DNA of 64,000 bases from Methylohalomonas lacus (GTDB taxonomy: Bacteria; Pseudomonadota; Gammaproteobacteria; Methylohalomonadales; Methylohalomonadaceae), in contig NZ_JANUCT010000003.1 in the NCBI RefSeq assembly GCF_024808875.1, positions 124,001 to 188,000 on the forward strand. The letters are read 5' to 3'. Within the stretch, counting starts at the first letter, position 1, and each line of letters starts with the position of its first letter. The position numbers and the translations under genes are program-made. Below are positions 13,141-25,518 of this stretch, one piece after another. The notes beneath the pieces are model-generated. The model saw only the letters and a list, made by a program, of their open reading frames with translations. It did no database searches and was not told the DNA's origin.

Positions 13141-14133
13141 ATGCGCGAACTCTACCCGGAAATCGAACCGGTCGAAGCCGGTCTGCTCGACGTTGGCGAC
13201 GGTCACCGGATCCATTACGAGGACTGCGGCAGCCGCGACGGCATCCCGGTGATTTTCCTCCATGGCGGCCCCGGCTCGGGCGCCAAGCCGCAGCACCGCC
13301 AGCTGTTTGACCCGGCGCGCTATCGCATCATCATCTTCGACCAGCGCGGCAGCGGCCGCAGCGAGCCGTTCGGCCGGCTGGAAGCCAATACCACGCAGCA
13401 CCTGCTCGCCGACATGGAAACCCTGCGCGAGCGGCTGGGCATCGACCGCTGGCTGGTGCACGGCGGTTCCTGGGGCGCGACGCTGGCGCTGCTGTACGCC
13501 GAGACGTACCCGCAAAAGCTGCTCGGCCTGGTGCTGCGCGGCACGTTCCTGGCCCGTGCCCAGGACTACCAGTTCCTGCTCGGCCGCGGCGCTGAGCGCT
13601 TTTTCCCCGAGTACTGGGACGATTTCCGCCAGGAGCTGATCGACCTGGCCGAGGTGCGCGGCCACTCGGGTTTCGACATGCGGCCCGAGGCCATCGTGCA
13701 GCTGCTGCATGAAAGCCTGGGCGCCGACGAAGCCGACCAGGTGGAAAAGGCGGCCCGCGCCTGGGCCTGGTGGACCGGCCGGGTGGTGACCTATACCCTC
13801 AATGGTGAATTCAGTCTCGACGGTTTCGACGCCGACAAGCTGGTCAAGTCCGGCGGCATCGAGCTGCACTACGCCCGCAACGCCTACTTCATCGAGGACA
13901 ACCAGATACTGGCCAACATCGGCCGGGTGCCGAATGTGCCGGTGCGCATCATCCACGGCCGCCGTGACATGATTTGCACGCTGTCGGCATCCTGGGCCGT
14001 GCACCGCGCACTGCCACAGTCGGAGTTGAAAGTGCTCGAGGATGCCGGCCATCTGGGCGGCGAACCGGCCATGATCAACGCGCTCGTCAAGGCCAGTGAC
14101 TGGATGGCGGATCAGATCGAACCGGCCAACTGA
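13141..14133 (+). CDS. pip: Proline iminopeptidase (prolyl aminopeptidase)
   Basis: The 330-residue alpha/beta-hydrolase of peptidase family S33 removes N-terminal proline from peptides in the cytoplasm. It has the oxyanion segment HGGPGSG, FDQRGSGRS, the nucleophile elbow GGSWG, an acid in IIHGRRDM and the catalytic His in DAGHLGG, all as in bacterial prolyl aminopeptidases. Length matches the family (about 315-335). It follows the repeat array with a short leader, and folP begins 22 bp downstream, so the two may be co-transcribed. Confidence 0.92.
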   Translation: MRELYPEIEPVEAGLLDVGDGHRIHYEDCGSRDGIPVIFLHGGPGSGAKPQHRQLFDPARYRIIIFDQRGSGRSEPFGRLEANTTQHLLADMETLRERLGIDRWLVHGGSWGATLALLYAETYPQKLLGLVLRGTFLARAQDYQFLLGRGAERFFPEYWDDFRQELIDLAEVRGHSGFDMRPEAIVQLLHESLGADEADQVEKAARAWAWWTGRVVTYTLNGEFSLDGFDADKLVKSGGIELHYARNAYFIEDNQILANIGRVPNVPVRIIHGRRDMICTLSASWAVHRALPQSELKVLEDAGHLGGEPAMINALVKASDWMADQIEPAN

Positions 14134-14155
14134 ACGCCTGAAGCAAGTAGCCGAT

Positions 14156-14983
14156 ATGCAATCGTTTTCCAGCCAGCAGCCGGCCATCATGGGGATTCTC
14201 AACCTGACGCCGGACAGTTTTTCCGACGGCGGCCGCTACACCGATGTCGAACGCGCGATTGAGCACGCCCGGCAGATGGTGGCCGAGGGTGCGGCCATCA
14301 TCGACGTCGGCGGCGAGTCGACGCGGCCCGGCTCGCAGCGCGTCAGCGCCGAGGAGCAGCTGAGCCGCATCCTCGATATCATTCGCGCTCTGCGCGGCGA
14401 TCTGCCCGCCGATATTGCCATCAGCGTCGACACGACCCGCGTGCCGGTCGCCGAGGCGGCCATCCGTGCCGGCGCCAACATGCTCAATGACGTTTCCGCC
14501 GGTCGTGACGACCCGCGCATGTTTGCACTGGCGGCCGAGACCGGCGTGCCCATCGCCATCATGCACATGCAGGGCGAGCCGGCGACCATGCAGGACAATC
14601 CCACCTACACCGATGTCGTCACCGAGGTCCGCGATTTTCTGCTCGAGCGCGTTGCCGTGGCGGAAGCCGCCGGTATCGCCCGGGAACAGCTGGTCATCGA
14701 CCCGGGCATCGGCTTCGGCAAGACCCGCGATCACAACCTGCAGCTGCTGGCAGGCCTGTCTGAATTCGTGCAGACCGGCTACCCGGTCCTGCTCGGCACC
14801 AGCCGCAAGCGCTTCATGGGCGCGATTTGCCAGGAAACCGATACCAGCCAATTGATCGGCGCAACCTGCACCACCACCGTCATTGGCGCCCAGGCGGGCG
14901 TCAGCATCTTCCGCGTTCACGACGTCCGACCCAACCGCCAGGCCATCGAAGTGTCGAAGGCGATTGCTTCAGCGCGTTACTAG
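14156..14983 (+). CDS. folP: Dihydropteroate synthase
   Basis: The 275-residue TIM-barrel enzyme condenses 6-hydroxymethyl-dihydropterin pyrophosphate with p-aminobenzoate. It shows the family signatures MGILNLTPDSFSDGG, GGESTRPGS, SVDTTRVPVAEAA and DPGIGFGKT, and the C-terminal GTSRKRFMG. The start at 14156 (MQSFSSQQPAIMGIL) is preferred because longer frames overlap the pip gene. In most gammaproteobacteria folP lies between ftsH and glmM; here it sits between pip and repeats, about 4 kb from a second, archaeal-type DHPS-like gene. It could be the only folP or a moved extra copy. Confidence 0.93.
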   Translation: MQSFSSQQPAIMGILNLTPDSFSDGGRYTDVERAIEHARQMVAEGAAIIDVGGESTRPGSQRVSAEEQLSRILDIIRALRGDLPADIAISVDTTRVPVAEAAIRAGANMLNDVSAGRDDPRMFALAAETGVPIAIMHMQGEPATMQDNPTYTDVVTEVRDFLLERVAVAEAAGIAREQLVIDPGIGFGKTRDHNLQLLAGLSEFVQTGYPVLLGTSRKRFMGAICQETDTSQLIGATCTTTVIGAQAGVSIFRVHDVRPNRQAIEVSKAIASARY

Positions 14984-17470: not shown

Positions 17471-18199
17471 TTATTCGACACAGTGATAGGGTGGTTTGTT
17501 CTCGATATAGGCCATCCACATGGCATCGAGCATGGTCCAGAGGATGTCGAGCTTGAACTGCAACAGGCCGAGCGCGTGTTCCTGCTGTTCGCGCGTGCGG
17601 AAATGATCCAGCGTGATGCTCAGGCCATGTTCGACGTCGCGGCGGGCTTCTCCCAGCCGCTTGCGGAAATAGTTGTAGCCGTCCGGCTCGATCCAGGTGT
17701 AATGCTTGGGCCAGTTGTCGAGCCGGTTCTGATGAATCTTCGGCGCGAACAGCTCGGTCAGCGATGAGCAGGCGGCTTCCTGCCAGGTCGCGTGCCGGGC
17801 GAAATTCACGTAGGCGTCGATGGCAAAGCGCACGCCGGGCAGCACGTGCTGCTCCGACTGGAGTTCCTCGCGGCTCAGGCCGACGGCCTCGCCGAGCTGC
17901 AGCCAGGCCTCGATACCGCCGTCGTTACCCTGGGTGCCGTCATGGTCGATAATGCGCTGCACCCACAGGCGGCGGGTGTCGCGATCGGTGCAGTTGGCCA
18001 TGATGGCGGCATCCTTGATTGGGATGCTGGTCTGATAATAGAAGCGGTTGGCTACCCAGCCCTGGATGGCCTTCTTTTCCAGCTTGCCCGTGTTCATCAG
18101 GACGTGGAAAGGATGATTGATGTGGTAATACTTCTCTTTCGCGCGGAGTTTCTGCTCGAACTCCTCGCGGCTCCACGGTGTTTGTTCTTCGATACCCAT
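17471..18199 (-). CDS. pqqC: Pyrroloquinoline-quinone synthase
   Basis: The 242-residue, cofactor-free oxidase carries out the last step of PQQ synthesis, ring closure and an eight-electron oxidation of the intermediate AHQQ. Family motifs include [68 protein letters not shown] and [16 protein letters not shown]. Length is close to the usual 250. It is the first gene after a terminator-like hairpin that separates it from pqqA; pqqB, which often lies between pqqA and pqqC, is missing here and is found at 26.9 kb. Confidence 0.96.
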
Positions 18200-18233
18200 C
18201 AGTTCAATATCCGCTTATTGATCGTTTATGTAT

Positions 18234-18268
18234 TAAAAAGCCCTGTTGACGGCGTGTCTAACAGGGCT
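18234..18268 (-). terminator. Terminator or attenuator between pqqA and pqqC
   Basis: Read on the minus strand, AGCCCTGTT and AACAGGGCT form a 9-bp perfect stem, followed directly by TTTTT. It lies 35 bp upstream of pqqC and after pqqA, so it would let most transcripts end after pqqA. An excess of pqqA mRNA over the rest is known in PQQ producers. Confidence 0.82.
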
Positions 18269-18357
18269 CACTGAAATTCCTGGTGCTTCGTGCACGCCCT
18301 TGCAATAACTGTGTCCCTGTTTCGATCCGGTTGGCTCAATCCGGCCTGGTATTGAAA

Positions 18358-18382
18358 CCGGGAGTGGCAAACCACCCCCGGT
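18358..18382 (-). terminator. Hairpin just downstream of pqqA
   Basis: On the minus strand CCGGGGGTGG and CCACTCCCGG pair across the loop TTTG with a small mismatch, 14 bp after the pqqA stop. There is no good T-run, so it may protect the 3' end of the pqqA message rather than terminate by itself. Confidence 0.5.
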
Positions 18383-18395
18383 CATACATAACAAC

Positions 18396-18470
18396 TTACT
18401 TGTTGTTGATGTACATGGTCACTTCGAAGCCGAAGCGAATGTCGCTATATGCAGGAGTATCCCACTTCAT
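18396..18470 (-). CDS. pqqA: PQQ precursor peptide
   Basis: The 24-residue peptide MKWDTPAYSDIRFGFEVTMY plus INNK is the ribosomal precursor of pyrroloquinoline quinone. The Glu and Tyr that become PQQ lie in the conserved spacing E-x3-Y (E16 and Y20), and the N-terminal W-x-TP and RFGFEVTMY match known PqqA peptides closely. A Shine-Dalgarno GGAG lies 8 bp before the ATG on the minus strand. It precedes pqqC-pqqD-pqqE with about 195 bp between, which contain two hairpins. It is too short to be found by usual ORF length cut-offs. Confidence 0.96.
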   Translation of the reverse strand: MKWDTPAYSDIRFGFEVTMYINNK

Positions 18471-18828
18471 GTTAATTCTCCAAGTTTAAGTTTAGTTTGA
18501 ATGTGGAGAGTGTCATCTAACTCCCCGGTGCAAACAGCGACATCAGAGAAGCTGTGTTGCACTGAATACGCGTTGCCAGAACCGTGCCAGTTCTGGCCCG
18601 GACCGCCGTATTGGGGTAAAATATCACTCAAATCATAAGGTTAAAATCGTCACGCAAACCCATGGCGGGTCTTGCTGCGACCCGGACGGGCCCGGCAGGC
18701 CTGTTTATGGCTATGAGTGACCAGTTAGACTGGTTACAGACAACCAGCAACGCGGTATCGGTTCGAAGCCGATATAATGCCCGCCGCAACCCGATCGCGA
18801 GCAACCAGACCAGGCGCTTCCCCATAAC
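18471..18828. promoter_or_regulatory. Divergent promoter region between pqqA and the H4MPT-type genes
   Basis: This 358-bp gap holds no gene that I can support. It must carry the pqqA promoter (minus strand) and that of the DUF6513 operon (plus strand). A good -10 box, TATAAT at 18773-18778, lies about 50 bp before the DUF6513 start, but no matching -35 is evident. The segment GGTTCGAAGCC at 18760-18770 is part of a small hairpin and not a tRNA arm. Confidence 0.45.
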
Positions 18829-20358
18829 ATGTCCGAACACATCGTCTTTCTGACCGGCAAGCTGGCGGAGAAAAGCCTGCACCAGGTGCTGGAGTCCATG
18901 CAGCCGGAATTCAGCTACGAGGTGCGTAACATCGGTGTCAGCGTGGCCGCGCTGATGACGGTCAAGCTGATCGAGCGACGGCTGACGGCGCTCGACGGCA
19001 TCGACCGCATCGTCGTACCGGGCCTGTGCCAGGGCGATATCGACGCACTGGCCGCGCAGCTTGGTGTCAGCGTGGAGCGCGGCCCGAAAGATCTGAAGGA
19101 TCTGCCGGCGTATTTCGGCGGCAAGGCGTTTGCCCCGGATCTGAGCCGCTACGATGTGCGCGTGTTCGCCGAGATCGTCGACGCGCCGCAGATCGACGTG
19201 GCCGCTATTGTCGAACGCGCCGAACGCTATCGCCGCGACGGCGCCGACGTCATCGACCTCGGCTGCCTGCCGGGGCTGGATTTCCCGCATCTGGAAGACA
19301 GCGTCCGGGCACTGCGCGACGCCGGTTTCACCGTCAGCGTCGATTCGCTCGAAACCGACGAGCTACTGCGGGGCGGCCGCGCCGGTGCGGATTACCTGCT
19401 CAGCCTGAAGGAAAGCACGCTGTGGCTGGCCGACGAGGTCGCCAGCACGCCCATTATCATCCCTGAAAGCCCCGGTGACATGGACTCGCTTTATCGTGCC
19501 GTCGCCAGCCTGACCGGGCAGGGCCGCGAATGTCTGGCCGACAGTATCCTCGATCCGATCCATTTCGGTTTTACCGCCTCGATCGTGCGCTACCAGCAGC
19601 TGCGCGAACAGTGCCCGGATATTCCGATCATGATGGGCATCGGCAATCTCACCGAGTTGACCGAGGCCGATACCACCGGCATCAACGCCATCCTGTTTGG
19701 TATCATTTCCGAATTGCGGATCACCAACGTACTGGCCACCGAGGTCAGCCCGCACGCCCGCGCGGCGGTGCGCGAGGCGGACAGTGCCCGCCGGCAGATG
19801 TTCGCCGCGCGCGAGGCCAACAGCCTGCCCAAGGGTTATAGCGACGCACTGCTGACAACCCACTCGCGCAAGCCGTTTCCTTCCACGCCGGAGGAGATCA
19901 GCGAGCTCGCCGGACAGATCCGCGATCCGAATTACCGCGTGCAGATCAGCGAGGCGGGTATCCACGTGTTCAACCGCGACGGCATGAGTATCGGCCAGGA
20001 ACCGTTTGCGATGTTCCCGGAACTGGTTCAGCTCGAGGACGATCCGCCGCATGCGTTCTACATGGGCGTCGAACTGGCGCGCGCGCAGATCGCCTGGCAG
20101 CTCGGCAAGCGCTATGACCAGGACGAGGAACTCGGCTGGGGCGTGGCCGTACCCGCCGCGGTGAGCGAAGAGGCCGGCGACACCGCGCGTGCCGCGCATG
20201 CCCTGAAACCGCAGAGCCGGCAGGAATTCAAGGAAGAGGGCAGTACAATGAAGGCCAGCCGGGCGCGCAAGCGCAAGCAGGCCGAGCGCGAACAAACCAC
20301 CGATAACGACAACAGCGGCGCTGACGATCGCGACGACGATCGCAGCAGCAACGACTGA
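18829..20358 (+). CDS. Dihydropteroate synthase-like protein of the H4MPT/methanofuran gene set (DUF6513)
   Basis: The 509-residue protein has an N-terminal Rossmann-like domain (HIVFLTGKLAEKSLHQVLE) and a TIM-barrel DHPS-like domain at about residues 120-310. The latter includes RYRRDGADVIDLGCLPG, ILDPIHFGF and MMGIGNLTELTEADTTGINA. Related archaeal proteins act as dihydropteroate synthases in tetrahydromethanopterin synthesis, and homologues in methylotrophs sit in H4MPT-linked C1 gene clusters. The last ~45 residues form a tail of a basic stretch (KASRARKRKQAER) and an acidic, Asp/Asn-rich end that are not part of the fold. It leads a tight operon with DUF447, mfnB-like and PCD genes. The exact reaction in bacteria is unproven. 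Confidence 0.85.
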   Translation: MSEHIVFLTGKLAEKSLHQVLESMQPEFSYEVRNIGVSVAALMTVKLIERRLTALDGIDRIVVPGLCQGDIDALAAQLGVSVERGPKDLKDLPAYFGGKAFAPDLSRYDVRVFAEIVDAPQIDVAAIVERAERYRRDGADVIDLGCLPGLDFPHLEDSVRALRDAGFTVSVDSLETDELLRGGRAGADYLLSLKESTLWLADEVASTPIIIPESPGDMDSLYRAVASLTGQGRECLADSILDPIHFGFTASIVRYQQLREQCPDIPIMMGIGNLTELTEADTTGINAILFGIISELRITNVLATEVSPHARAAVREADSARRQMFAAREANSLPKGYSDALLTTHSRKPFPSTPEEISELAGQIRDPNYRVQISEAGIHVFNRDGMSIGQEPFAMFPELVQLEDDPPHAFYMGVELARAQIAWQLGKRYDQDEELGWGVAVPAAVSEEAGDTARAAHALKPQSRQEFKEEGSTMKASRARKRKQAEREQTTDNDNSGADDRDDDRSSND

Positions 20359-20363
20359 ATATA

Positions 20364-20939
20364 ATGATGATCTACGAAACCATCGTCACCACCCTGAATG
20401 CCGACGACAGCGTGCAGATTGCGCCCATGGGCCTGCGCCGGGTCGACGACCTGTATCTCATTGCACCGTTCCGGCCGTCGACCACGCTCGCCAATCTCGA
20501 ACGCAGCGGCGTGGCTGTCGTCAACCTGACCGATGACGTGCGCGTGTTCGCCGGTTGCCTGACCGGCCGCTACGACTGGCCGTTGCAGCCGGCCGAAGTC
20601 GTGGCCGGGCGTTACCTCGACGCCGCCCTGTCGCACCTGGAACTGCGCGTCGAGCGCGTCGACGAGGACGAACTGCGGCCACGCTTCTACTGCCGGTGCG
20701 TGCATGAAGGCATGCACAAGCCGTTTCTCGGCTTTAACCGTGCCCAGGTCGCGGTGCTCGAGTGCGCGATACTGGTTAGCCGTCTCGATCGGCTGCCGCG
20801 CGAGAAGATCACCAATGAACTGGAATACCTGCAGATCGCCATGGACAAGACCGCCGGTGAACGCGAACGCCAGGCCTGGGACTGGCTGATGGAACGCATC
20901 AATGCCCACCTGGACGCCGACGCGGCACAGGACGCCTGA
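20364..20939 (+). CDS. DUF447 family protein (flavin-reductase-like split barrel)
   Basis: The 191-residue protein matches DUF447, a family shared by methanogenic archaea and bacteria with H4MPT-dependent C1 oxidation. It shows the opening IYETIVTTLNADDSVQIAPMGLRR and the central VFAGCLTGRYDWPLQPA. The fold is expected to be a split barrel that may bind a flavin or pterin. It starts 5 bp after the DUF6513 gene, and its stop overlaps the start of the MfnB-like gene (TGATG). The function is unknown, but the operon ties it to methanofuran or methanopterin metabolism. Confidence 0.83.
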   Translation: MMIYETIVTTLNADDSVQIAPMGLRRVDDLYLIAPFRPSTTLANLERSGVAVVNLTDDVRVFAGCLTGRYDWPLQPAEVVAGRYLDAALSHLELRVERVDEDELRPRFYCRCVHEGMHKPFLGFNRAQVAVLECAILVSRLDRLPREKITNELEYLQIAMDKTAGERERQAWDWLMERINAHLDADAAQDA

Positions 20940-21682
20940 TGAACGCCATAATGCCTCCGGTTACGCCGCAGTTCCTGGCCAGCGTCAGCAGTCTTGCCGA
21001 GGCCCGGCTGGTGGCTGCCCATGGTGCCGATATCATCGACCTCAAGGATCCGGCCCGTGGCGCGCTCGGTGCGTTGGCCGCGGCGGAACGCGCGCGTATT
21101 GTTACCGCGCTGGGCGGTCGCCACACGCTGAGTGCGACCATCGGTGACCGGCCGCTGGCCGCGGACGTTATCGCGCCGGCGATCACGGCGACGGCCGCCG
21201 CGGGTGTCGACATCGTCAAGATCGGCTGGTTTGGCAGGCAGCTGGACAGCGCCGTATTGGCCTGCCTGGCACGGGCGGCCGGGCAGGGCGTACGGGTCGT
21301 CGTCGTGCTGTTTGCCGAATACGGGGCGCAGCTCGATCATCTGCCGAGCCTGGCTGATGCCGGCCTGTATGGTGTCATGCTCGACACCATGGACAAGCAA
21401 AGCGGGGCGCTACGCGATAAACTCGGAGATGACGAACTGGCCGCGTTTGTCGCGCGGTCACGCGATGCCGGCCTGTACTGCGGTCTGGCCGGTTCGCTGA
21501 AACAGGCCGATATCGTGCCGCTGCTGTCGCTGCAGCCGGACTACATGGGCTTTCGCGGCGCGCTTTGCCGCGACAGTCAGCGTATCGCGACGCTTGATAA
21601 AGCGGCGGTGGAGGCCGTACGGTGCGCAATCAAGACGAACATTCATACACTGGCCGACCGCCCGTCGGTTGCCTGTGTCTAG
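20939..21682 (+). CDS. (5-formylfuran-3-yl)methyl phosphate synthase-like protein
   Basis: The 247-residue protein matches MfnB (former DUF556), which makes the furan precursor of methanofuran from two glyceraldehyde-3-phosphate molecules. The signature IIDLKDPARGALGAL holds the Schiff-base lysine of the aldolase-like fold; VDIVKIGWFG supplies a second lysine and GVMLDTMDKQSG a conserved acidic site. In bacteria methanofuran-like cofactors serve formyltransferase/hydrolase in H4MPT-dependent formaldehyde oxidation. The start ATG overlaps the DUF447 stop by one base. The PCD gene follows 22 bp later. Confidence 0.9.
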   Translation: MNAIMPPVTPQFLASVSSLAEARLVAAHGADIIDLKDPARGALGALAAAERARIVTALGGRHTLSATIGDRPLAADVIAPAITATAAAGVDIVKIGWFGRQLDSAVLACLARAAGQGVRVVVVLFAEYGAQLDHLPSLADAGLYGVMLDTMDKQSGALRDKLGDDELAAFVARSRDAGLYCGLAGSLKQADIVPLLSLQPDYMGFRGALCRDSQRIATLDKAAVEAVRCAIKTNIHTLADRPSVACV

Positions 21683-21704
21683 CTGATTAAAGGAGATCGA
21701 TACC

Positions 21705-22091
21705 ATGGCTCAATGGCGCAACAAGGAAAAGGACGCAACCTACAGCGAAGAGGAAATCGAGGCCCGCCTGAAAGAGGAACTGCCCAACTGGTACTACGAG
21801 GACGGCTGGATCCGCCGCAAGTACAAGACCGCGGGCTGGAAAGGCACGCTGATGGTCATCAACACCGTCGGCCACCTGGCCGAGGCCGCTTTCCACCACC
21901 CGGACCTGACTGCCTCGTATGCCTTTGTCATCGTCAAGCTGATGAACCACGCCGCCAAGGGCGTCACCGACAAGGACTTCCAGCTGGCGAAGAAGATCGA
22001 GGAAGTCGTGATGTGGCAGCCGGCCCACGAGGAAGGCGATCTCGATGGCACGCCGGACGACCCGCGCTTCAAGTACATCAAGTACGACTGA
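21705..22091 (+). CDS. Pterin-4a-carbinolamine dehydratase family protein
   Basis: The 128-residue protein has the family signature FHHPDLTASYAFVIVKLMNHAAKGVTDKDFQLAKKIE, including the His-His-Pro active site. A good Shine-Dalgarno (AAAGGAGAT) precedes the start. Classical members recycle 4a-hydroxytetrahydrobiopterin, but no aromatic-amino-acid hydroxylase is in view. As last gene of the DUF6513-DUF447-mfnB operon it more likely acts on a methanopterin-type pterin; homologues occur in H4MPT clusters of methylotrophs. The C-terminal EEGDLDGTPDDPRFKYIKYD extends past the fold. Confidence 0.9.
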   Translation: MAQWRNKEKDATYSEEEIEARLKEELPNWYYEDGWIRRKYKTAGWKGTLMVINTVGHLAEAAFHHPDLTASYAFVIVKLMNHAAKGVTDKDFQLAKKIEEVVMWQPAHEEGDLDGTPDDPRFKYIKYD

Positions 22092-22092
22092 T

Positions 22093-22374
22093 CAGTTACT
22101 GGTCATTAGTGACTGGTGATTGGCAAAACCTGCCGAGAGTGAGAGCGGATTAAAATCCGCGAACCTCTCGTTACATGTTTCGCCAATGGTAATCGGCTTG
22201 TATGTTGATGGTGACGGCTCTCCCACTGAAAAGAAACGACGGCAACGGTAGGAGCGGCGACCCCGCCGCGAAACATGCGCCAAATCATTCGGCCCGAGGT
22301 CGGACCTCCTGCCGGGAGGTTGATTGGTGACCGGTGAACCTGCCAGTCACCAATGACCGCTCACCAGTTACCAC
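22093..22374. repeat. Intergenic spacer bordered by GGTGATTGG-type repeats
   Basis: The left border (22093-22132) carries GACTGGTGATTGGC and ACCTGCC. The right border (22319-22374) carries GATTGGTGACCGGTGAACC, then CCAGTCACCAATGACC and TCACCAGTTACC. The middle holds a GCGGATTAAAATCCGC hairpin and a GGCGACCCCGCCGCGAA motif that recurs as GGCGACCTGCCGCGAA in the spacer at 35.3 kb. The right border is similar to 25517-25563 in front of moaC. There is no gene. Confidence 0.7.
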
Positions 22375-22375
22375 A

Positions 22376-22424
22376 CTACAACTGCCCCTCCGCCGTCCAG
22401 TGACTCGAACGACTGCCGGGCTTT
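22376..22424 (-). pseudogene. Remnant of a moaC 3' end
   Basis: On the minus strand these 49 bases align without gaps to the last 49 bases of the intact moaC (25564-25612) with 39 identities. In the same frame they read KPGSRSSHWTAEGQL-stop against [15 protein letters not shown]-stop. The similarity continues past the stop codon into the spacer (22329-22375 versus 25517-25563). Upstream coding sequence is not recognisable beyond a weak match near 22437-22451. The copy thus is a broken fragment. It lies in direct orientation to moaC, so the two copies flank the RHH-bphO-bphP segment. Confidence 0.7.
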
Positions 22425-22476
22425 GATGTTGGCGCAGCGCTTTACACAGCTTTCATGAATCGGCGGCCCATATCGC

Positions 22477-22710
22477 TCACTCGGCGGCCGAATCGTCCAC
22501 ATCATAACCAATCGCCGAGTCGTCCGTTTCATAGCCAAACACTGCCTGTTGCTCGGGCACGGGGATCCCGTGGCTTTCACAGCGCTCGCGGATGAGAACC
22601 TCGATCCAGTTGGTCACGCTGCGATGCTCGCGCCCGGCGGCGGTGCGGGCGGCCGCCTTGAGGTCGGGATCGATGCGCAGGTTCAGAGTGGCAATTTTGC
22701 GGGCGGTCAT
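22477..22710 (-). CDS. Ribbon-helix-helix DNA-binding protein
   Basis: The 77-residue protein has a ribbon-helix-helix pattern in its first 45 residues (KIATLNLRIDPDLKAAARTAAGREHRSVTNWIEVLIRE), as in Arc/CopG/HicB-like regulators. The acidic tail holds an imperfect repeat (GYETDDSAIGYDVDDSA). The ATG at 22710 is chosen because GAGGT lies 7 bp upstream; the GTG at 22719 is inside that site. Such proteins are often antitoxins, but no toxin gene is adjacent: downstream is the moaC remnant and upstream the divergent heme oxygenase. It may instead regulate the phytochrome operon that starts 90 bp away. Confidence 0.8.
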   Translation of the reverse strand: MTARKIATLNLRIDPDLKAAARTAAGREHRSVTNWIEVLIRERCESHGIPVPEQQAVFGYETDDSAIGYDVDDSAAE

Positions 22711-22799: not shown

Positions 22800-23459
22800 T
22801 TGGCAGGCTTGAATATAGATAGTGAACCTGGTCTGGTAGCCCGGTCACGGCAGCAAGGTGCAAGCCGTAACGCGACGCTGCCAGTGTCTGACGGCCTGTT
22901 GCTGGCACAGCTTCGTGTCGCTACCCGCGAGCAGCATGCACGGCTGGAATCTCTACCGGCGCTGCGGCGGCTGTTTGCCGACGACTATACCGTTGCCGAA
23001 TATAGCCGTCTGCTGCAGTCGTTTTTCTCCCTCTTTAGCCCACTGGAAGCCGCCGTACAGGCAACAGGACGAAAGACGGCGGCCAGCCTGGGCTATGAAT
23101 TGCGCAGTGAGGATCTGGCCGCGGATCTTAAAATATTGGCCGCTAAAACTGGTGCCGATACTGCCGTCCCGTCTGCACTGACCGGTTCCCGGGCGGCTGA
23201 AACCGGTTGCCTGTATGTGCTGGCGGGGTCGCGCCTGGGTGGCAAGGTCATTGCCCGGCAACTGGCGGGCAGCCTGGGCCTGACCGCGGATAGCGGCATA
23301 CGGTTTTTTGCGGGATCTTCCGGTAACGAGGGACACAATTGGGCACAGTTCTGCCACCGCGCCGAATTGTCTTGTGATACCCCGCCGGCAAGAGAAGCTG
23401 CAGTGTCTGCCGCGGCAGCCACATTTGATCTGTTTTACCAGCAGCTCGCCGATGAATAA
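22800..23459 (+). CDS. bphO: Heme oxygenase for bacteriophytochrome chromophore
   Basis: The protein (219 residues from TTG 22800, or 191 from GTG 22884) matches the BphO family. It has LLAQLRVATREQHARLESLPALRRLF with the axial heme His, and a C-terminal GSRLGGKVIARQL followed by FFAGSSGNEGHNWAQFC. It opens heme to biliverdin, the chromophore of bacterial phytochromes. The gene end overlaps the phytochrome start by 8 bp (ATGAATAA), so supply of chromophore and apoprotein is coupled. The N-terminal 28 residues before the fold are not conserved in kind, which makes GTG 22884 a real alternative. Confidence 0.9.
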   Translation: MAGLNIDSEPGLVARSRQQGASRNATLPVSDGLLLAQLRVATREQHARLESLPALRRLFADDYTVAEYSRLLQSFFSLFSPLEAAVQATGRKTAASLGYELRSEDLAADLKILAAKTGADTAVPSALTGSRAAETGCLYVLAGSRLGGKVIARQLAGSLGLTADSGIRFFAGSSGNEGHNWAQFCHRAELSCDTPPAREAAVSAAAATFDLFYQQLADE

Positions 23460-25518
23460 TCCATTGACCGAAAAAGACGATCCCCGCGTCGCGTTGTATG
23501 AAGGATGTGAAGCCGAGCCGATTCATATTCCGGGTAGCATTCAGCCCCGGGGCGCACTGCTGGCAGTGGATCGGCACAGCGGCGAGATACTGCAGGTCAG
23601 CCTGAACACCGAACGGTACCTGGGATACCAGCCGGAGGGCCTGCTCGGCAAGGATATATCGTTCCTCATCGGGGCCGGGCCCAAGAAGCAGATCATGGAC
23701 AGGGACCTGGCGCCGGTCTATCCGAATCTGAACGAACCCGTTCTGGTCACCATAGCGGGAGAAGATAATCACTCCCATGAATTGATCATGATGCCACATT
23801 TAAACGACGGCGTCGTGATACTGGAATTTGAATTTTATAATGAACAGGAGGCAGCACCGCTTGCCGCCTATCATCGGCTGCTGGCAACACTCAATCGTAT
23901 CAGCCAATCCCGTTCCGAGGACGAACTGTTACAGCAGGCGGTCACAGAGGTTCAGGCGCTTACCGGATACGAACGCGTCATGTACTACCGGTTCAAGGAA
24001 GACGGTAGCGGTATCGTGACCCATGAGGCGCGTACGGACAGCAGCATAGGTTCCTATCTTGATCATCATTTCCCGGCTGCGGACATACCGGCCCGCGCGC
24101 GGGAACTGTATCGCCAGAATTCGCTGCGGTTCATTTTCGATCCCGAGGCCCGGGCCGTACCGATCCGGCCAGCGAACAACCCGCGTACCGGCAAGCCGCT
24201 GGATCTGACCTATGCTGTGTTTCGGAGCATCGCGCCTGTGCACATCGAGTATCTGCGCAATATGGGGGTAGGCGCGAGCCTGTCCCTTTCCATTGTGATT
24301 GATGATCATCTCGAGGGCCTGATCGCCTGCCACCATCGCTCGTCAAGTGCCGTTTCGCAATATCTCCGGGTTACCTGCCAGAGCGTTGCTGTCGCTGTAA
24401 CTTCGCACCTGTCTAAACTGCGTGCTTCCAGTACCAGTAGCTGGAACAACGAAATCAGGGAGTCGCTGGAGCCGTTTATCAATGAAATTATTAATGGCCA
24501 GCGATTGGTTACCGCTTTTCGACACCATATTGACACACTTATGTCGCTCATGGATGCGGACAGCGCTTTTCTGCAGTTCGGTAAAGAACAGGTGGCAGCG
24601 CCCAAGGCAGCGGAAAAGCAGCCATTCCCCGTCCAGTTAAGGGGTGTTTGCACAGGGCCACCTGTCTACGCATCGGATCGTCTGGGGGAATTGAGAAGTC
24701 TTCCCGGTGAACTGCGGGAATACCTGACAGGCGGGATCGTCATCGATTTGGACAACGGTGACTTTCTCTGTCTCGGACGGCGCGAATATCTGGATGACAT
24801 TGTCTGGGGCGGTGATCCGACCAAGCCGATGGTCAATGGTGACACTGAAAATCCTCGGCTCAGCCCCCGGTCCTCGTTTGCATCCTGGCGCGAGACGGTG
24901 CGCGGCAGAAGCAGGGCCTTTGGCGCCAGGGAGAAAACCATGGCAACCGCGCTGCGACATATCATGTTTGAGGCGAAGGCGCTGGAGTTCAGGCGCCTGG
25001 CAGAAGAGAAAATGCAACTCGAGGCCCGCACCGATTCGCTGACCGATCTGATCAACAGGAAGGAATTCTATCGTCGTGGCCAGGAAGAGATAGAGCGTGC
25101 ACGGCGTTACGGCCGGGAATTAGCGCTGGTATATTTCGATATCGATCATTTCAAGGTCGTTAATGATACGCATGGTCATGATGCCGGTGACCGGGTGCTC
25201 CGGCGGGTGGCCGATCTCTGCCGGGAACGGCTGCGTGTCAACGATATCTGTGCCCGGCTGGGTGGTGAGGAGTTTGTAATCCTGCTGCCGGAAACCCAAC
25301 TGCAGGCTGCCGTCCATCTGGCCGAATGCCTGCGCGAACAGTTCGAAAATGATAGTGTCAGTTACGACGATATAGAAATCCGTGTTACCAGCAGCTTCGG
25401 CGTTGCGGTGCTGGGCGCGGATCCCGATGAAACGCTGGAAACCGTACTCAAGCGTGCCGACACGGCGCTTTATCAGGCCAAGGCAGCGGGGCGTAACCGG
25501 GTGGTTAGCGACTTGTGA
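23452..25518 (+). CDS. bphP: Bacteriophytochrome with diguanylate cyclase output (PAS-GAF-PHY-GGDEF)
   Basis: The 688-residue photoreceptor has a PAS domain with the biliverdin-binding Cys19 (CEAEPIHIPGSIQPRGAL). It has a GAF domain with FPAADIPARARELYRQN and ACHHRSSSAVSQYLR, and a PHY domain whose tongue carries PRSSFASW. The C-terminal cyclase domain has GGEEF at 604-608 in LGGEEFVILLP, DIDHFKVVND for metal binding and an RxxD inhibitory site (RVND) five residues before it. It should make cyclic di-GMP in response to red/far-red light instead of using a histidine kinase. The ATG at 23452 overlaps the bphO stop; longer frames run inside bphO. Confidence 0.95.
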   Translation: MNNPLTEKDDPRVALYEGCEAEPIHIPGSIQPRGALLAVDRHSGEILQVSLNTERYLGYQPEGLLGKDISFLIGAGPKKQIMDRDLAPVYPNLNEPVLVTIAGEDNHSHELIMMPHLNDGVVILEFEFYNEQEAAPLAAYHRLLATLNRISQSRSEDELLQQAVTEVQALTGYERVMYYRFKEDGSGIVTHEARTDSSIGSYLDHHFPAADIPARARELYRQNSLRFIFDPEARAVPIRPANNPRTGKPLDLTYAVFRSIAPVHIEYLRNMGVGASLSLSIVIDDHLEGLIACHHRSSSAVSQYLRVTCQSVAVAVTSHLSKLRASSTSSWNNEIRESLEPFINEIINGQRLVTAFRHHIDTLMSLMDADSAFLQFGKEQVAAPKAAEKQPFPVQLRGVCTGPPVYASDRLGELRSLPGELREYLTGGIVIDLDNGDFLCLGRREYLDDIVWGGDPTKPMVNGDTENPRLSPRSSFASWRETVRGRSRAFGAREKTMATALRHIMFEAKALEFRRLAEEKMQLEARTDSLTDLINRKEFYRRGQEEIERARRYGRELALVYFDIDHFKVVNDTHGHDAGDRVLRRVADLCRERLRVNDICARLGGEEFVILLPETQLQAAVHLAECLREQFENDSVSYDDIEIRVTSSFGVAVLGADPDETLETVLKRADTALYQAKAAGRNRVVSDL

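Follow-up and report, generated by a model that had tools for sequence, protein, structure and literature searches.

A central part of aerobic methylotrophy is the oxidation of formaldehyde by way of tetrahydromethanopterin (H4MPT) and methylofuran, and the afpA and orf names carried by part of its gene set reportedly go back to Kalyuzhnaya et al. (2005). According to excerpts of the published descriptions, Methylosinus trichosporium has an island with the order orf19-orf20-afpA-orf21-orf22 (PMC3615186), Orf22 and Orf21 are homologues of MfnB and MfnE (PMC8141765), bacteria are known to reduce dihydromethanopterin with AfpA/DmrB or DmrA (PMC6193120), and some proteobacteria have already been noted to lack a recognised Afp gene (PMC5020050). 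Here we analyzed a four-gene operon, DUF6513-DUF447-MfnB-PCD (PCD, pterin carbinolamine dehydratase), located at positions 18829–22091 on the + strand of a 64,000-nucleotide stretch of Methylohalomonas lacus DNA (the window), which is part of contig C3 of a 2.76-Mb genome assembled in 38 contigs and 98.97% complete. The four genes very probably form a module that supplies coenzymes to the bacterial oxidation of formaldehyde through H4MPT and methylofuran. For this module taken together with the roles proposed below for the four proteins, which is the best explanation of the locus as a whole, we estimate a probability of roughly 0.6.

The literature searched assigns no bacterial protein to the joining of the pterin to the ribofuranosyl aniline, to the role of DUF447, or to the last reductase of genomes such as this one. 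Our data give a candidate for each of these three, plus a PCD subfamily as a candidate coenzyme-repair enzyme. The new elements are this H4MPT-linked PCD subfamily, the mutual exclusion of operon-linked PCD and AfpA in our sample, and a genome without an assigned dihydromethanopterin reductase.

The operon and its pathway

Open reading frames (ORFs) and Pfam matches, all four above the Pfam cut-offs, confirmed what an earlier note, made from the sequence alone, had described as four adjacent + strand genes separated by a 5-bp gap, a 1-bp overlap and a 22-bp gap. The first gene (18829–20358) encodes a 509-aa DUF6513 protein of the orf20 type (1.2e-36), and the second (20364–20939) a 191-aa DUF447 protein of the orf19 type (DUF447_N, 2.5e-26; DUF447_C, 2e-16), although its start may be the second ATG at 20367, because many DUF447 relatives begin with MIxE. 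The third (20939–21682) encodes MfnB (orf22), a 247-aa member of the 4-(hydroxymethyl)-2-furancarboxaldehyde phosphate synthase family (4HFCP_synth, 2.2e-61), and the fourth (21705–22091) a 128-aa PCD (Pterin_4a, 9e-25), preceded, as judged by eye, by its own AAAGGAG site. Scanning 18100–22700 for promoters and terminators returned two promoter-like sites, both on the - strand, compared with 1.6 in shuffles, and no terminator-like site.

The gene order is not due to chance, because 33 of the 40 DUF6513 loci of the class also have DUF447 and MfnB, and 12 of them PCD. The class is taken as Gammaproteobacteria in the wide sense (class genomes share contigs with named records, e.g., L146 and L057), and these loci were fetched from 40 of the 43 DUF6513 genomes other than the window's own, G000; G254, G286 and G311 lie outside the set, and the stretches of G254 and G286 were excluded from the gene-order analysis. 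Contig ends truncate some of the remaining seven loci, and three of the seven genomes (G091, G120 and G212) have DUF447, MfnB and PCD together at another place. Among 80 named loci, several of them short contigs and four of them repeating class loci (L146/L057, L147/L054, L151/L053 and L203/L037 are duplicate DNA), DUF447 was present in 75, MfnB in 72 and PCD in 8. Furthermore, DUF447 and MfnB precede the PCD in seven further loci fetched around that gene (L116, L119, L120, L122, L125, L137 and L138). The assignment to orf types is based on a locus from another class of the phylum (L241, presumably from an alphaproteobacterium), where the order MfnB, MfnE-type kinase, AfpA-type flavoprotein, DUF6513, DUF447 is that of the Methylosinus island read from the opposite end; DUF6513 is therefore orf20, DUF447 orf19, and orf22 MfnB. 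The operon belongs to the bacterial "archaeal-like" H4MPT/methylofuran gene set.

Further members of this set (mch, fae, fhc, mptG, orf5, orf7 and orfY types) are present in the same genome. Contig C23 carries mch, fae, orf5/myfB-, orf7- and orfY-type genes, a hydantoinase-type orf9, a GHMP kinase in the mptG position and an amidohydrolase in the fhcA position, together with mtdB, the formyltransferase gene fhcD, formate dehydrogenase, a pabB/trpE-type gene and a pyrroloquinoline quinone (PQQ) dehydrogenase. Of 369 class genomes, 43 have both DUF6513 and Mch, one has only DUF6513, four have only Mch and 321 have neither; a weak Mch match of G313, below the cut-off, counts as negative here. These results lend good support to the common pathway, for H4MPT together with a methanofuran-type coenzyme, that the earlier note had read from the close coupling of the genes. 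Its other statement, that two of the four proteins have no assigned reaction, agrees with the literature searched, in which we found none for DUF6513 or DUF447. Those searches returned nothing on DUF6513, nothing on pterins for DUF447 as judged by the listing, nothing combining "dihydropteroate synthase-like" with methanopterin, a single review, judged by the listing, for carbinolamine dehydratase together with methanopterin, and no mention of MJ0107, MJ0301 or MJ0703 in the literature searched on them; the excerpts of PMC6787355, PMC8305020, PMC13300288 and PMC2680597 contained nothing decisive.

The role of MfnB can be assigned with high confidence from the function of its family, and the protein would convert glyceraldehyde 3-phosphate into the furan precursor of methylofuran. 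MJ1099 (4rc1, 4u9p) is its only solved relative by sequence (E 2e-20), and its alignment to 4rc1 showed that the stretches DLKDP, VKIG and MLDTxxK are kept, where the motifs DxKxP, VKxG and MLDTxxK presumably contain the catalytic residues of MJ1099.

The PCD subfamily and the DUF6513 protein

The earlier note had remarked that the PCD lacks a biopterin partner. This holds insofar as a search for biopterin-dependent hydroxylases (PF00351), positive in the Caulobacter control, gave nothing in the genome; however, a likely partner exists in the H4MPT pathway, because the subfamily to which this PCD belongs tracks Mch. The protein is not a stray biopterin enzyme but a member of a distinct subfamily that follows the H4MPT pathway, which we label M-PCD. 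A search of the 369 class genomes with the window's PCD yielded 46 genomes at E 3.9e-31 or better (42–100% identity), with the rest at 5.2e-14 or worse. The 46 aligned proteins have a common C-terminal extension (about 25 residues in the window's protein; consensus WQP...LEGTPxDxRFxYxKYD), eroded in the most divergent rows, and all of them keep the His-His pair; the matched PCD chains in the PDB measure 80–106 residues compared with 128 for M-PCD. In the window's protein the PF01329 match is accompanied by the His-His motif with the third histidine, which we take to be the PCD motif. The second, canonical PCD of the genome (contig C4, L005:4526-4861) shares PF01329 and the His-His pair, but it is only ~28% identical and lacks the C-terminal extension. 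Its nearest NCBIfam model is NF002016, whereas M-PCD is nearest to NF002017, over the cut-off of that model, which is named 4a-hydroxytetrahydrobiopterin dehydratase. Because the PCD tree has only one canonical row, placed on a very long branch, and its bootstrap is unsettled, the subfamily rests on the E-value gap and the shared extension.

M-PCD was present in 38 of 47 Mch-positive compared with 8 of 322 Mch-negative class genomes (Fisher 3e-35). When families were counted, the one form of correction for phylogeny in our co-occurrence tests, it was present in 21 of 26 with Mch and in 3 of 156 others. In a phylum sample, all 11 further DUF6513 genomes encode it (66–77% identity), and it adjoins mptG in seven of the 11 loci; in many genomes it lies elsewhere than in the operon. 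Two methanogens included as controls, Methanocaldococcus jannaschii and Methanosarcina acetivorans, have Mch and no PF01329 match. The co-occurrence with Mch, the phylum sample, the adjacency to mptG and the controls, two methanogens without a PCD and Haloferax with one, fit an association of M-PCD with H4MPT in aerobes.

The simplest chemistry for M-PCD would be a repair of the coenzyme. Oxygen meeting the reduced pterin would yield the 4a-hydroxy form of (dephospho)H4MPT, and M-PCD would dehydrate this form so that it can be re-reduced, instead of rearranging to a dead isomer. We propose such a repair step for aerobes tentatively. Several observations weigh against it. Nine of the 47 Mch-positive genomes lack M-PCD, eight Mch-negative genomes have it, and Haloferax, the third control with Mch, has a PCD as well. 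One of the eight (G008) is 75% complete and has DUF6513, and the other seven are divergent; in three of these seven (L130, L131 and L135) a pabB gene (TIGR00553, over cut-off) lies within 2 kb downstream, which suggests a folate/para-aminobenzoate-linked version of the same PCD. In two of the seven, G313 and G342, M-PCD stands among the same neighbours as those of the window's folP/pqq region. The end branch of G313 in the PCD tree is 1.06 compared with a median of 0.13, and its relatives have Mch, as would be expected if constraint had relaxed once the pathway was lost, in a single case where long branches are unsure. The strongest competitor is a biosynthetic M-PCD, for instance a dihydropterin tautomerase/dehydratase acting in pterin assembly or methylation, to which we give somewhat less credit than to repair. 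The neighbouring mptG and pabB genes just described would suit it, as would the position of M-PCD behind MfnB in 19 of the 48 class genomes examined for such linkage; a biosynthetic step would, on the other hand, be missing from both methanogens and from the nine Mch-positive genomes without M-PCD.

The DUF6513 protein consists of the DUF6513 domain (residues 3–87), a barrel of the type found in dihydropteroate synthase (DHPS) and pterin-binding methyltransferases (residues ~107–333), and a C-terminal part ending in a conserved tail. This C-terminal part has a PterinBD-DUF4346 match below the cut-off, and the nearest NCBIfam model of the protein, a dihydropteroate synthase-like family, is likewise below its cut-off. 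An AlphaFold2 model built from 30 sequences had a mean pLDDT (predicted local distance difference test) of 84, with low values in the final part of the tail. Foldseek ranked cobalamin-dependent methionine synthase and DHPS at the top, and VIA-align gave Z 20.9 to Staphylococcus aureus DHPS 1ad1 (residues 108–333). The pterin barrel fold of DHPS is thus present by structure and by alignment of the DUF6513 profile with the window's own FolP (14096–14983, upstream of the operon) over 84–337 with E 4.5e-5 and probability 69, and weakly in a sequence search of the PDB with that profile. The 30-sequence alignment shows full conservation of D143, D172, N273 and H309 and almost full conservation of D242, and D143 and D172 coincide with the IDxG and SVD(S/T) stretches of DHPS (SVDT at D172). 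The differences from DHPS are considerable, as identity is ~13–19% and DUF6513 has extra N- and C-terminal parts besides its tail. The pairing of N273 and H309 with DHPS was made by eye; the DHPS lysine (SRK) and arginine (RxH) were not seen where expected, with asparagine in place of the lysine. In 24 of the 80 named loci (L153–L218, mostly Methylococcales), folP lies divergently within ~1.1 kb upstream of DUF6513, so that the folate DHPS and its H4MPT-linked relative are neighbours there.

We regard DUF6513 as a candidate for the pterin-condensing enzyme, at slightly less than even odds. Its substrates would be the ribofuranosyl aniline phosphate (RFAP) made by MptG and an activated pterin, either 6-hydroxymethyl-7,8-dihydropterin diphosphate or a methylated version of it, which it would link to each other, and would serve methanopterin as DHPS serves folate. 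A methyltransferase-like pterin binder or methyl carrier that condenses nothing is a less probable alternative. Several points speak for it or against condensation. The barrel scored Z 20.4 to the corrinoid/FeS methyltransferase 2e7f (residues 110–341), so that the two folds tie, in a fold test that covers residues ~107–333 only. In a profile search of PDB sequences the best match was a designed TIM barrel, followed by DHPS chains at E 6e-4 to 0.6. Another archaeal family, MJ0301, has reportedly been given the condensing step. M. acetivorans has Mch without a DUF6513 match; DUF6513 is therefore not required by every organism with such a coenzyme, which takes weight from condensation and gives it to the methyltransferase-like alternative. 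M. jannaschii and the Sulfolobus control have a DUF6513 match, and Sulfolobus acidocaldarius has none to Mch. By eye, the invariant GxGN (N273) is also closer to the GLSN presumably typical of such methyltransferases than to the SRK we assume for DHPS. Condensation is favored, in turn, because some enzyme must condense the product of MptG, because the scan of C23 genes revealed neither a further DHPS relative nor a corrinoid partner, and because the invariant H309 falls, by eye, at the RxH anion site of DHPS.

The tail of the DUF6513 protein (residues 439–509; 20143–20355, + strand) consists of a variable linker, the motif GSTM (residues 471–474; bases 20239–20250), a basic run (~475–487) and an acidic end (488–509). 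The earlier note had called it an added basic-then-acidic tail and had proposed to look for it in homologues. A tail of this composition does exist, but it is no addition: the pattern G-x-T-[LMFYR], following a conserved Q(D/E)xxLxWG and a variable linker, was found in 74 of 111 distinct complete homologues (78 of 115 before repeats were removed; one of 116 complete proteins, without the anchor, was left out). The idea of a tail special to the window's protein was accordingly rejected. Among shuffled tails the count averaged 1.07 and never exceeded 5, which is no independent test because the pattern was picked after the alignments had been viewed. After the motif, 65 of the 74 tails are net positive; by eye, ~32 of the other 37 homologues have a looser form, such as ASLKEKR in Methylophilaceae, and G-x-T occupies the same place in all 11 phylum-sample loci. 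The window's tail contains 10 acidic residues after the motif, the highest number among the 74 (next 6). As far as sequences tell, the basic part belongs to the family as a whole and the acidic end is a local trait. The motif may be a docking site for a partner or a lid on the active site. The linker is enlarged in L036:7464-9050 by copies of the seven-residue SKSSEAD, and ACGTADK repeats occur in L049.

Formate dehydrogenase, AfpA and DUF447

Some neighbours of M-PCD could point away from H4MPT and towards the molybdenum/tungsten cofactor (Moco), notably that of the NAD-linked formate dehydrogenase which finishes formaldehyde oxidation. A role in Moco metabolism has been assigned to PCD, according to an excerpt of PMC3223725. 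In 8 of 33 loci (L110, L111, L113, L118, L121, L123, L126 and L127) M-PCD stands divergently next to genes for NAD-linked formate dehydrogenase, and 12 of 45 loci have a MoaE-type gene close by on the same strand. We stratified the genomes by Mch and formate dehydrogenase with a cut of about E 1e-100, which was our choice. Mch-positive genomes had M-PCD in 32 of 36 cases with formate dehydrogenase and in 6 of 11 without (p 0.02), and Mch-negative genomes in 3 of 34 and 5 of 288 (p 0.04), respectively. This weaker association within the class speaks against repair of H4MPT and was the reason for giving the Moco role slightly more weight. Nevertheless, Mch was the better predictor both in genomes with formate dehydrogenase (32/36 Mch-positive vs. 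3/34 Mch-negative) and in those without (6/11 vs. 5/288), and seven of the 11 phylum-sample loci, where moa genes were not searched, have M-PCD beside mptG. We consider a Moco role unlikely and retain repair of 4a-hydroxy H4MPT as the preferred function of M-PCD.

With the AfpA of L241 as query, AfpA was found in 19 of 58 genomes positive for Mch or DUF6513, directly before DUF6513 in 18 of the 19. No AfpA was detected in any of the 19 class genomes in which PCD follows MfnB, compared with 11 of 20 other M-PCD class genomes (p 1.5e-4), or 14 of 29 when genomes without M-PCD are also counted (p 2e-4); by family the figures are 0 of 10 and 10 of 17 (p 0.003), and all of these counts still contain lineage effects. 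Nine of the 20 other M-PCD genomes have neither AfpA nor the PCD-MfnB linkage. The window's genome gave no match to the AfpA query and its sole PF02441 protein is CoaBC; DmrA was not used as a query. It encodes one protein of the dihydrofolate reductase (DHFR) family, nearest to the DfrA3 and type 3 DHFR models and below their cut-offs. With no AfpA/DmrB match and a single DHFR-family protein, the reductase would be an unrecognised protein, unless that one DHFR-family protein is used for H4MPT or the gene falls into the 1% that the assembly lacks.

The DUF447 model (pLDDT 97) matched 3b5m of Rhodopirellula baltica best, followed by the DUF447 structures 2iml, 2nr4 and 2ptf, which are bound to flavin mononucleotide (FMN), with flavin reductases and other FMN proteins ranking after them. 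The likeness to these four entries, whose titles assign no function, extends over the whole length of the fold (query TM 0.57–0.89), and the split-barrel fold common to the FMN-bound members is present. DUF447 may thus act on a pterin intermediate as an FMN-dependent oxidoreductase, an assignment we hold with less than even confidence. It occurs both with and without AfpA and is thus no simple replacement of AfpA. In the window's genome it is nonetheless the nearest reductase candidate, though also found alongside AfpA elsewhere. A more specific proposal, which we consider improbable, is that DUF447 serves as the unrecognised dihydromethanopterin reductase where AfpA/DmrB and DmrA are absent, with M-PCD as its partner, M-PCD returning oxidised, 4a-hydroxylated H4MPT to a form that DUF447 would reduce. 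If true, a single coenzyme would have its synthase, reductase and repair enzyme encoded side by side in the operon, and PCD would have been drawn in where AfpA was lost.

Surroundings and comparison with the known islands

Besides folP, two pqq-type genes (a radical S-adenosylmethionine protein with SPASM, and a PqqC family member) lie upstream of the operon in the window. Downstream, at 22800–25518, ORFs resemble, by eye, a heme-oxygenase-like gene and a phytochrome-type protein with a GGDEF end. Between 14980 and 16020 similar stretches recur by eye in ORF translations of both strands, which suggests repeated intergenic DNA.

A purely historical adjacency of the four genes, in which furan and pterin genes would serve separate ends without joint control, is very improbable: MfnB does belong to methylofuran and the other three to pterins, and M-PCD is often located elsewhere, but gaps, measured from starts chosen by script, were below 100 bp for DUF6513-DUF447 in 31 of 33 and for DUF447-MfnB in 33 of 33 measurable cases and below 120 bp for MfnB-PCD in 12 of 12, and at L241:7785-9023 (- strand) MfnB is fused to a FolB-type dihydroneopterin aldolase domain, placing a furan and a pterin enzyme in a single chain.

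The closest described arrangements are the two Methylosinus islands. With the afpA island, read as orf22-orf21-afpA-orf20-orf19, the operon shares orf20 (DUF6513), orf19 (DUF447) and orf22 (MfnB), whereas it lacks MfnE and AfpA and has MfnB in third place and PCD last. With the pcbD-mptG island, as it appears in the excerpt of PMC3615186, it shares the linkage of a PCD to H4MPT biosynthesis, although in the window the PCD comes after MfnB. The operon is a real module that is well conserved; it belongs to a known system and shows a variant of its arrangement, with AfpA and MfnE out and PCD in.

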